A DNA stretch of 64,000 nucleotides from Ensifer adhaerens (GTDB lineage: Bacteria > Pseudomonadota > Alphaproteobacteria > Rhizobiales > Rhizobiaceae), in the NCBI RefSeq assembly GCF_002007205.1, contig NZ_LAZS01000006.1, positions 62,001 to 126,000 of the forward strand, given 5' to 3'. Both the position numbers and the translations under genes were made by a program. Position 1 is the first letter of the stretch; each line of letters opens with the position of its first letter. Below, piece after piece: positions 12,779 to 15,253 of this stretch. The notes below the pieces were generated by a model. The model saw only the letters and a list, made by a program, of their open reading frames with translations. It searched no databases and had not been told where the DNA came from.

Positions 12779-13192
12779 ATGTATTCCATCGGCGATCTCT
12801 CCCGGCGCACCGGCGTCAAAATCCCGACGATCCGTTATTACGAGCAGATGGGACTAATCGCAGCGCCTGAGCGTTCGGAAGGCAACCAACGCCGCTACGA
12901 AAGAAGCGAACTGGAACGGCTGGCCTTCATCCGCCATGCGCGCGACCTCGGCCTGTCGATCGATTCGATCAAGGACCTGCTCGCCCTCAGCCAGCATCCG
13001 GAGCGACCTTGCGGCGAAGCCGACCGCATCGCCAGCGAGCACCTGGCAACGGTGCGCGAGAAGATCGCGCGCCTGAGGAAGCTGGAGCAGGAACTGGAAC
13101 GCATCGTCGCCTGCGACGGCAACCACACCGTCGGCGACTGCTATGTGATCCGGGCGCTCGCCGACCATTCGATGTGCGAGAGCGAGCACTGA
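12779..13192 (+). CDS. MerR-family regulator, heavy-metal (ZntR/CadR/PbrR-like) type
   Basis: A 137-residue regulator. The N-terminal winged helix holds YSIGDLSRRTGVKIPTIRYYEQMGL and GNQRRYERSE; a dimerisation coiled coil spans about residues 78-110. Cysteines at 78, 112 and 121 match the Cys79/Cys114/Cys123 triad of PbrR- and CadR-type sensors, with His116 between the last two as in ZntR, so Zn, Cd or Pb sensing is more likely than Cu. A further Cys lies at 133. No metal exporter gene is adjacent, so its target is either itself or elsewhere. The ATG at 12779 begins the canonical MerR N-terminus. Confidence 0.85.
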   Translation: MYSIGDLSRRTGVKIPTIRYYEQMGLIAAPERSEGNQRRYERSELERLAFIRHARDLGLSIDSIKDLLALSQHPERPCGEADRIASEHLATVREKIARLRKLEQELERIVACDGNHTVGDCYVIRALADHSMCESEH

Positions 13193-13241: not shown

Positions 13242-13270
13242 TTGACAAAGTCGCGAAAACGAACAATCTA
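13242..13270 (+). promoter_or_regulatory. Promoter of the attenuator leader
   Basis: TTGACA at 13242-13247, a 17-base spacer and AATCTA at 13265-13270. Seven bases beyond the -10 box is 13277, which is the A of the leader ATG, so the transcript is predicted to begin at or within a base of the start codon. Confidence 0.65.
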
Positions 13271-13276
13271 GCGCCC

Positions 13277-13327
13277 ATGATCAAGAACGCACCCATTTGC
13301 CGCGCGTATTTTTGGCTGTTCCGATAG
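13277..13327 (+). CDS. Leader peptide, 16 residues, probably leaderless
   Basis: ATG to TAG encodes MIKNAPICRAYFWLFR. Five of the last seven residues before the stop form the run Tyr-Phe-Trp-Leu-Phe, so four of them are aromatic. There is no ribosome-binding site, and the predicted transcription start coincides with the ATG, as described for the Sinorhizobium meliloti trp leader. It is followed directly by alternative hairpins and a terminator. The peptide itself probably has no product role: ribosome stalling at the aromatic codons would choose between hairpins. It is too short for routine gene callers. Confidence 0.65.
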   Translation: MIKNAPICRAYFWLFR

Positions 13328-13329
13328 GA

Positions 13330-13381
13330 GCGGCCTGCTGATCATATTCAACAAGGCCGCCATCAGGCGGCTTTTGTTTTT
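13330..13381 (+). terminator. Attenuator: antiterminator and terminator hairpins
   Basis: GCGGCCT (13330-13336) pairs perfectly with AGGCCGC (13354-13360) to form an antiterminator. GCCGCC (13356-13361) pairs with GGCGGC (13366-13371) across an ATCA loop and is followed by TTTTGTTTTT, a Rho-independent terminator. The two share bases 13356-13360, so only one can form. A third option pairs GCCGC at 13299-13303, inside the leader ORF, with 13330-13334. A ribosome stalled on the Tyr-Phe-Trp codons (13307-13315) would cover that segment and free the antiterminator. Confidence 0.7.
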
Positions 13382-13382
13382 C

Positions 13383-13415
13383 CGGCTCCTGATGGCGAGA
13401 AAACCCGAGGAGCCG
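13383..13415 (+). promoter_or_regulatory. Hairpin sequestering the GNAT ribosome-binding site
   Basis: CGGCTCCT (13383-13390) pairs with AGGAGCCG (13408-13415), eight perfect base pairs. The right arm contains GGAG, the ribosome-binding site for the ATG at 13420. This adds a possible translational gate after the attenuator. Confidence 0.55.
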
Positions 13416-13419
13416 AGAC

Positions 13420-13923
13420 ATGCTACAGACCGCCATCCCTTCCCTTCATCCCGTCCCGTCGACGCGGCCGCCGATGGTCACCATCCGATGCGCCAAGCAG
13501 CGCGACCTGCCGGAGCTGCGCGACATGATCGCCGAACTCTCGGCCCATCACGGCGACGCAGCACCAATCACGCCGGAACAGCTCGAGCGCGACCTCTTCG
13601 GCCGCACGCCCTGGATCACGGCGCTCGTCGCCGAGGCAGGCAACCGGCTGATCGGCTACGCGATCCTGGTGCCGATCTACCGGGCTGCCGAAGGCGCGCG
13701 CGGCATGGAACTGCACCACCTCTTCGTTCGCCCTGAAAGCCGGGGCACCGGTATTGGCCGCCACCTCGTTGCCAAGGCGCGCGAGCAGGCGAAGATGGCC
13801 GGCTGCGACTTCCTTTCGGTCAGCGCCGCCACGGGCAACTTCCAGGCACACCATTTCTACGAATCCGAACGCTTCGTCCCTCGCCCGGTGACCGGCATGC
13901 GCTATATGCAGAAGCTTGGCTGA
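13420..13923 (+). CDS. GNAT-family N-acetyltransferase
   Basis: A 167-residue acetyl-CoA-dependent transferase. The GNAT fold begins near MVTIRCAKQRDLPELRDMI (from about residue 19). The acetyl-CoA loop is RPESRGTGIGRHLVAKA (about residues 107-123), followed by the conserved ATGNFQAHHFYESERF strand-helix. The acceptor is unknown. Its ribosome-binding site is inside the preceding hairpin and its transcript starts with the aromatic leader peptide, so expression is probably tied to charging of an aromatic tRNA. The next gene, of the DJ-1 family, starts 10 bases after its stop and is likely co-transcribed. Confidence 0.87.
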   Translation: MLQTAIPSLHPVPSTRPPMVTIRCAKQRDLPELRDMIAELSAHHGDAAPITPEQLERDLFGRTPWITALVAEAGNRLIGYAILVPIYRAAEGARGMELHHLFVRPESRGTGIGRHLVAKAREQAKMAGCDFLSVSAATGNFQAHHFYESERFVPRPVTGMRYMQKLG

Positions 13924-13933
13924 GGAGTCGCCG

Positions 13934-14521
13934 ATGCGTCTTGCAATCGTACTGTGCGAGGGCTTTGCCGATTGGGAATGTGCGCTGTTGATGGCGGCGG
14001 CGCGCACCCATCTCGGCGTCGATATCGAGGTTGCCACCGCCGACGGCGCGCGCGTCACCTCGATGGGCGGCCTTGACGTCTCGGCGCATCTCTCCGTCGA
14101 TGCCCTCGATCCGGCCGGCTTCGACGGGCTGGTGATCTGCGGCGGCGCGGTCTGGGAGACCAATGAGGCTCCTGATCTCTCCTCGACGATCCGCGCCTTC
14201 GACCGCAACAAGCGCGTGGTCGCGGCCATTTGCGGCGGCGTCCATGCTCTTGCAGCATGCGGTATTCTGGATGGTGTCGACCACACCGGCAACAGCGCCG
14301 AAAGCCTTGCAGCGCTGCGCGGCTATCGTGGCGGTTCGCACTATCGCAATCAGCCGCAGGCGCTGCGCAGCGGCCATGTCGTTACCGCCGCCGGCACCGC
14401 ACCGATCAGTTTTACCGGCGAGATCCTGCATGGCCTCGGCCTCGGCTCACCGGAGCTCGACGGTTTTCTCGCGCTCTACGGACGAGAGCATCAGGTGAAC
14501 GAAAGCGCGAGCATCGGGTAG
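13934..14521 (+). CDS. DJ-1/PfpI family protein
   Basis: A 195-residue class I glutamine-amidotransferase-like protein. The ATG at 13934 has GAGGAG upstream. The nucleophile Cys is in VVAAICGGVHALAACG (about residue 104), and the acidic partner is the Glu in VLCEGFADWE near the N-terminus, as in DJ-1/PfpI proteins. These act as glyoxalases/deglycases, chaperones or amidases; the exact activity cannot be told here. It is the second gene of the attenuator-controlled operon, which suggests a shared role with the GNAT enzyme, perhaps in handling a reactive or aromatic amine metabolite (inference). Confidence 0.83.
   Translation: MRLAIVLCEGFADWECALLMAAARTHLGVDIEVATADGARVTSMGGLDVSAHLSVDALDPAGFDGLVICGGAVWETNEAPDLSSTIRAFDRNKRVVAAICGGVHALAACGILDGVDHTGNSAESLAALRGYRGGSHYRNQPQALRSGHVVTAAGTAPISFTGEILHGLGLGSPELDGFLALYGREHQVNESASIG

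Positions 14522-14578: not shown

Positions 14579-15253
<675 letters not shown>

Follow-up and report, generated by a model that had tools for sequence, protein, structure and literature searches.

The window, that is, the whole 64,000-nt stretch of Ensifer adhaerens DNA analyzed here, carries a gene for a GNAT acetyltransferase preceded by a promoter, a short reading frame and a series of RNA helices (table 1). The -10-like hexamer of the promoter is, by sequence reading, a weak match to TATAAT, and the leader ATG sits 6-7 nt past it. The control codons TAT TTT TGG occupy 13307-13315, the leader containing Tyr, Phe and Trp once each plus one later Phe. A first-pass annotation of this region had described the same 16-codon reading frame, which we found in place with the peptide MIKNAPICRAYFWLFR followed by TAG. 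Its proposal that the -10 box sets the transcription start on the ATG agrees with the promoter spacing, both here and in the compared loci, but a start at 13277 is only predicted, from the position of a sigma-70-type promoter with a weak -10 match and without 5'-end data.

Among proteins of solved structure, the GNAT protein comes closest (E ~6e-10) to a probable N-acetyltransferase (2fe7), to diamine acetyltransferase 2 and to a thialysine acetyltransferase; similarity to these enzymes does not reveal its substrate. A MerR-family regulator (CadR/PbrR-like, below the cut-off) is encoded upstream of the leader at 12779-13192, and a nitroreductase-family gene (14579-15253, minus strand) is convergent with the GNAT operon. 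In the 80 named loci, which are the best 80 of 410 relatives, the DJ-1/PfpI gene lies within the locus in 44 and the MerR gene upstream in 53, what led us to reject both as constant partners. Since the DJ-1 gene is inconstant, the conserved target is the GNAT gene; the earlier view had named both genes as controlled, and only the GNAT is constant.

Table 1. Features of the GNAT locus, in window coordinates
Feature	Position	Strand	Description	Basis
Promoter	13242-13270	+	TTGACA 13242-13247, 17-nt spacer, AATCTA 13265-13270	Sequence reading
Leader ORF	13277-13327	+	Predicted leaderless, 16 codons, MIKNAPICRAYFWLFR, stop TAG	Sequence reading, 111 loci
RNA 5' end	13277-13283	+	Includes start codon; 7-bp helix with 13339-13345	Folding
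Region 1	13314-13322	+	Trp-Leu-Phe-Arg codons; pairs with region 2	Folding
Region 2	13327-13336	+	Pairs with region 1 (via 13327-13335) or region 3 (via 13330-13336)	
Region 3	13354-13361	+	Forms antiterminator with region 2 or terminator with region 4	
Region 4 and U-tract	13366-13381	+	Terminator hairpin 13356-13371, tract 13372-13381	
Region 5a	13384-13389	+	GGCUCC, anti-Shine-Dalgarno; pairs with 13409-13414	Covariation
Region 5b	13388-13397	+	CCUGAUGGCG; complements terminator 5' arm and loop, 13358-13367	Covariation, shuffles
Region 6	13409-13414	+	GGAGCC, holds GNAT Shine-Dalgarno	Sequence reading, folding, covariation
GNAT acetyltransferase gene	13420-13923	+	167 aa; conserved controlled gene	Pfam PF00583, 1.1e-16
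DJ-1/PfpI gene	13934-14521	+	Variable second gene	Pfam PF01965, 3.9e-24

Leader structure and conservation in Rhizobiaceae

Both hairpins put forward in the first-pass annotation, an antiterminator (13330-13336 with 13354-13360) and a terminator (13356-13371) with its T-tract, were verified in the sequence. Its list of structures was incomplete: our analysis adds a 1:2 hairpin over the last leader codons, base pairing at the 5' end of the RNA and, past the terminator, two further helices that are conserved. The 1:2 hairpin (13314-13322:13327-13335) has 9 bp and a folding energy of -16.9 kcal/mol. When segments were folded singly, without shuffles, 1:2, 2:3 and 3:4 each formed in all 55 nonredundant leaders. 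In this set 1:2 is retained despite base changes (GUUCC/GGAGC, GUUUC/GAAGC, GCAUU/GAUGC), its register sliding in 15 rows of the alignment. In most leaders the RNA 5' end is seen as a duplex; the helix is weak in L013, L082, L097, L108 and L109, built of other bases in L025 and shifted in register in L012-type leaders. The helix stands without a shuffle control, and it was not formally counted, as alignment A2 does not keep the 17-codon leaders in register.

A blastn search with the leader gave a match in 40 of 199 family genomes, and a protein search with the GNAT (E<=1e-30) found it in 42 of 198. The leader lies upstream of all 42 GNAT loci from these 198 Rhizobiaceae genomes, 35 of them read and seven known by coordinates only (G009, G047, G069, G097, G107, G140, G171). 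It was located by blastn directly upstream in 37 of the 42 (30 read, seven coordinates-only), and each of the five more divergent GNATs (47-53% identity) has a leader on reading. Three blastn matches (G013, G072, G179) proved not to be leaders on reading, and their genomes are without this GNAT. Likewise, the leader was present in 80 of the 80 named loci, again the best 80 of 410 relatives, which span Ensifer, Sinorhizobium, Rhizobium, Agrobacterium, Neorhizobium, Ciceribacter and others, including S. meliloti 4H41 (L055) and A. tumefaciens MEJ076 (L099).

The reading frame with TTGAC 34-37 nt before its ATG was found in 111 of 111 loci (31 plus the 80 named, the window's own locus being counted twice, and the distance in L025 being measured from the first of two ATGs); there are 100 distinct sequences among 110 loci. 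The frame is 16 or 17 codons long. Tyr-Phe is invariant in the 111 loci and Trp adjoins it on either side (YFW or WYFT), while the leader L180 of a divergent GNAT reads WFYY. Outside this aromatic core the peptide is poorly conserved: the residues before the core vary, and the final one is R, L, P, S or Q. In all 55 aligned leaders TTT encodes the core Phe (in the GNAT genes of the same loci, nine of 270 Phe codons are TTT), and TAT encodes the core Tyr in 53 of them. The comparison among Rhizobiaceae that had been recommended as a check thus finds both the aromatic core of the peptide (111 loci) and the alternative hairpins (55 folded leaders) conserved.

Sister leaders in the genome, the order and the class

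A covariance model built from the 55 GNAT leaders (R1) found a second leader in the Ensifer genome, at G000:C18:747147-747269 (E 4.4e-14), and these two leaders were the only clear ones that R1 found there. The second reading frame, MIKTARIAVTYYATSP, stands at the same distance from its promoter (TTGCCG/TACAAC) as that of the GNAT leader, and precedes a tyrosyl-tRNA synthetase gene (TIGR00234, 374.9 bits). The genome has two tyrS genes; the segment G000:C18:745941-747269 (L137/L146/L187) holds the second one under its YY sister leader, and the other tyrS is without such a leader. By blastn the tyrS leader occurs in three of 198 family genomes, all of one genus. One further match (G083) was not a leader on reading, and the remaining 25 matches were GNAT leaders.

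With R1 and strict filters, a sample of 397 genomes of the order yielded 27 places. Two were own places, eight were GNAT-type leaders in the family (four read singly, the other four not), nine preceded tyrS and two preceded prephenate dehydrogenase-like (tyrA) genes that score below curated cut-offs; one was a decayed leader (L132/L185) and five were unrelated on reading. Of the genomes examined, all 11 with a leader-tyrS pair carry two tyrS genes that exceed the curated cut-off, and all four without such a pair carry one (G071, G369, G283, G417; G802 not included). In a TyrRS tree of 23 rows, from which L191, L192, L201 and L203 were left out for motif mismatch, a branch with support 100/98 separated the 12 leader-linked TyrRS from the others. 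The genome G071, with its single tyrS, contains an orphan YY leader (L148, G071:C1:2250943-2251057) with no tyrS directly downstream; as read from its sequence, it has lost the leader-linked tyrS but kept the leader.

A second model (R2), made from GNAT, tyrS and tyrA leaders, was used with strict filters on 385 genomes of the class and gave 36 places in 32 genomes, two own and 34 others. Thirty-one of the latter were read, 11 being accepted as leaders and 20 being unrelated terminators; the weak places left unread were G952, G675 and the second place of G596. The accepted leaders stand before one tyrS (TIGR00234, 357.9 bits), before GNATs of two further groups (four and one; 27-34% identity to the window's GNAT, E 0.6 to 5e-9), before two small free-standing proteins with an S4 domain, similar to the C-terminus of TyrRS (L231 and L234, the latter protein below the Pfam cut-off), and before one trpS (TIGR00233, 230.5 bits; leader FIWW), one prephenate dehydrogenase gene (L237; 500.9 bits, cut-off 409) and one class-II DAHP synthase gene (L254; leader FYDRWY). 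A TTGAC box at leaderless distance is found in 10 of the 11. Two cases are weaker. L237 has a GTG start, and its YY-containing reading frame is 25 codons long and extends past region 2. L254 has a model E of 6e-4, no clear -35 box and a p of 0.084 in the test of the 3:5 helix described below, and its gene matches the first 127 of 443 profile positions, after which (at ~135 residues) the frame departs. These results suggest, by sequence comparison, that the leaderless attenuator family extends beyond the order.

The aromatic codons are YY, YFYY or YF in tyrS leaders, YY in tyrA leaders, WW in the trpS leader, and F, Y and W in the DAHP synthase leader; no gene-specific codons were seen in other kinds of GNAT leader (WYFT) or in the S4-protein leaders. 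Across the class there is thus a trend for predicted control codons to match largely the downstream gene, although independent cases are few, and codons suited to the gene argue for codon sensing. The earlier reading had set this locus apart from attenuators of amino-acid biosynthesis. Such a contrast holds for the GNAT copy but not for its sisters, which precede charging and synthesis genes (tyrS, tyrA, trpS, DAHP synthase). Its mechanism was retained; its frame was too narrow, since the GNAT leader is one member of a family of leaderless aromatic leaders.

Proposed mechanism and alternatives

Based on our data, the element is very probably a leaderless ribosome-mediated attenuator whose mRNA would begin at the AUG of the leader peptide. 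This bears out the ribosome-mediated aromatic attenuation of the first-pass annotation, with support from the promoter-ATG spacing, the short reading frame, the Tyr-Phe/Trp core and the alternative hairpins. The scheme of GNAT induction proposed here is inferred as regards stalling, read-through and tRNA sensing, as there are no expression data. When Tyr-, Phe- or Trp-tRNA is scarce, a ribosome would stall at TAT TTT TGG and cover region 1; region 2 would then pair with region 3 before region 4 exists, no terminator would form and the GNAT gene would be transcribed. With good charging, a ribosome at the stop codon would cover region 2, so that 3:4 could form and transcription would end. In the absence of a ribosome, 1:2 and then 3:4 would form, also ending transcription. 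Since the GNAT leader has one codon for each aromatic residue and the DAHP synthase leader has all three, the GNAT leader probably reads a shortage of any of them. The further suggestion of the first-pass annotation, a response to translation-blocking antibiotics, finds no support in these data.

With the A-site on Tyr, Phe or Trp, an assumed footprint of 13 nt masks region 1 entirely or for the greater part, region 2 remaining free. With a ribosome on Trp and the complete terminator sequence available, the terminator nonetheless remains the fold of minimum energy, and the order of synthesis must therefore matter, 2:3 coming first. An intrinsic terminator precedes the GNAT gene, the exception being one genus without the U-tract.

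What happens past the terminator is less certain. There, region 5a may pair with the Shine-Dalgarno sequence and lower GNAT translation, and the terminator 5' half, re-paired with 5b, may oppose this hiding, in which case the switch would adjust translation as well. The 3:5 helix (13358-13367:13388-13397) is paired in 92.5% of cells, against 51.6% in the best slid register. Its covariation is 0.162 versus 0.100 in shuffles, with none of 500 shuffles as high, and only five and six of 500 were as high for double-sided pair changes and pair types, respectively. The Shine-Dalgarno helix 5a:6 is paired in 76.2% of cells, with covariation of 0.244 versus 0.103 (0/500 as high). It was not exceptional for double-sided changes (192/500 shuffles as high) or pair types (206/500), and beats shuffles on three of five measures. 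These controls leave relatedness in, so that the counts are not probabilities. Against dinucleotide shuffles of single leaders (p<0.05), 3:5 complementarity stood out in 68 of 78 leaders, taking all types together, and in 14 of 20 when those preceding this GNAT are left aside, L237 being omitted as its reading frame continues beyond the expected stop; the Shine-Dalgarno hairpin did so in only 45 of the 78 and in 10 of these 20.

It remains quite possible, if short of an even chance, that the element works by transcription attenuation alone and that the helices past the terminator serve, outside the switch, to set basal translation or the stability of the mRNA. Constrained folding speaks for this. 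When 2:3 was forced in 55 read-through leaders, the probability of 3:5 exceeded 0.5 in only seven, and dual control at equilibrium was rejected on this ground. Mean accessibility of the Shine-Dalgarno sequence was 0.25 with 2:3 forced and 0.18 with the terminator forced, being higher in 43 of 55 leaders, mostly slightly. In the window's own leader, as in most of the 55, the site was hidden in both forced states. Moreover, a full 2:3 and a full 3:5 exclude each other, both of them using region 3. In view of this weak equilibrium support, a translation layer rests on covariation, on kinetics (5b is made before the Shine-Dalgarno sequence) and on a genus lacking the U-tract. Against attenuation alone stand the covarying 3:5 complementarity, which recurs in distant leaders with other bases, and that same genus. 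In the genus of G081 (L213-L225), the leader is present and the U-tract absent in 13 of 13 genomes searched. The terminator hairpin is lengthened there by flanking complementarity (CACC/GGTG and beyond), and in 13 of 13 the Shine-Dalgarno sequence can be placed, on reading, in a (C)GTCCC/GGGAC(G) helix; the 3:5 test on two of its leaders gave p 0.024 (L028) and 0.004 (L031). Loss of the U-tract with the Shine-Dalgarno helix kept suggests translational control too, although termination in this genus is untested and equilibrium support is little. The genus may be a natural case in which attenuation has shifted from transcription to translation.

We consider it unlikely that the element is mainly a small RNA or a trans-acting leader peptide of the rnTrpL/peTrpL kind, 3:5 then being a trans target in its own mRNA. 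A precedent is rnTrpL of S. meliloti, a leaderless attenuator RNA that also acts in trans (PMC7298713; PMC10117765), and the terminated RNA would here be ~105 nt long with, by folding, a paired 5' end. The poor conservation of the peptide outside its aromatic core argues against this reading.

We regard as quite improbable an arrest peptide, in which the nascent chain, perhaps with a small molecule or an antibiotic, would stall the ribosome without any need for codon starvation. The aromatic tail lies near the stop codon, as would suit such a peptide, and peTrpL was described as acting jointly with antibiotics in rhizobia (PMC7298713). However, the residues before the aromatic run are variable, as is the last one (R, L, P, S or Q), the Trp switches position between before Tyr and after Phe, and across the class the codons largely match the downstream gene, what fits codon sensing better.

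For the attenuator as such, a chance origin can be set aside. On both strands of the window we scanned for TTGAC 33-37 nt before the ATG of a reading frame of 8-26 codons. There were two, of which the single one with a terminator was that at 13277, and 60 dinucleotide-preserving shuffles of the window gave 112 such frames, none with a terminator. The feature at 13242-13422 is real and beyond chance. An ordinary intergenic terminator beside an accidental short reading frame, in whose favor such TTGAC-box frames do arise about twice per window, is virtually ruled out by the lack of terminators beside the 112 and by the conservation of the leader in every GNAT locus examined.

Known systems and a possible regulon

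Leaders of the E. coli trp and phe type combine a leader peptide with control codons and the 1:2, 2:3 and 3:4 logic that the GNAT leader has in common with them, but they carry a Shine-Dalgarno sequence before the leader, while the GNAT leader is predicted to be leaderless. The Rfam family Phe_leader (RF01859), whose cut-off is 55, reached 16.5 bits (E 2.3). In Streptomyces, an auxiliary tryptophanyl-tRNA synthetase that confers indolmycin resistance is controlled by an attenuator. As with the sister leaders of the second tyrS, an additional aminoacyl-tRNA synthetase is placed under an attenuator, but phylum and synthetase are different, and resistance is not shown for tyrS2 or the GNAT. In translational attenuators of the ermC/cat type, translation of the leader decides whether a Shine-Dalgarno sequence is hidden, in response to a drug and without an intrinsic terminator; the GNAT leader has a terminator and a hidden Shine-Dalgarno sequence together.

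At gathering score, Rfam release 15 gave no match in the window or in 13 related loci, with five weak matches below the cut-off. Among the matches listed in the open-access literature, judged by title or opening of the abstract, we did not find a GNAT leader or an alphaproteobacterial tyrS attenuator, which does not show that none is in print. The closest system is the trp leader of S. meliloti (trpL/rnTrpL/peTrpL), from the same bacterial group. It has a leaderless reading frame at the 5' AUG and ribosome-mediated attenuation, (PMC7298713; PMC10117765), and the likeness of leaderless starts that had been pointed out earlier agrees with the promoter position here, the start of the GNAT leader being a predicted one. 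The GNAT leader differs from it in the downstream gene (GNAT, not trpE), in codons for all three aromatic residues and in the extra helices past the terminator; trpL itself was not located here. A study of start sites in S. meliloti counted 171 leaderless mRNAs, and in its main text attenuation, GNAT, tyrS and leader peptides are not mentioned (PMC3616915).

If our inference is correct, the GNAT would be a gene of aromatic-charging stress, its type of leader being common to the auxiliary tyrosyl-tRNA synthetase of the same genome. That it acts against aromatic analogues or inhibitors of the synthetases is only guessed from gene company; no aromatic link has been shown for the GNAT protein itself. 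We tentatively raise the possibility, which we hold with less than even confidence, of an undescribed aromatic-charging regulon in Alphaproteobacteria. A single family of leaderless leaders would run it and would set two things at once, termination and, as the 5' half of the terminator re-pairs with a segment ahead of the Shine-Dalgarno sequence, translation; in the one genus without the U-tract, control would have become translational. Its members would be tyrA, DAHP synthase, an auxiliary tyrS and a trpS, together with GNATs whose role may be to inactivate analogues of aromatic amino acids or inhibitors of the aromatic tRNA synthetases. For this leader family, without a match in Rfam, codon content would often tell what each copy senses. 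An orphan acetyltransferase is in this way linked to aromatic amino-acid status by its switch and not by its sequence, and its substrate thereby becomes a testable question.
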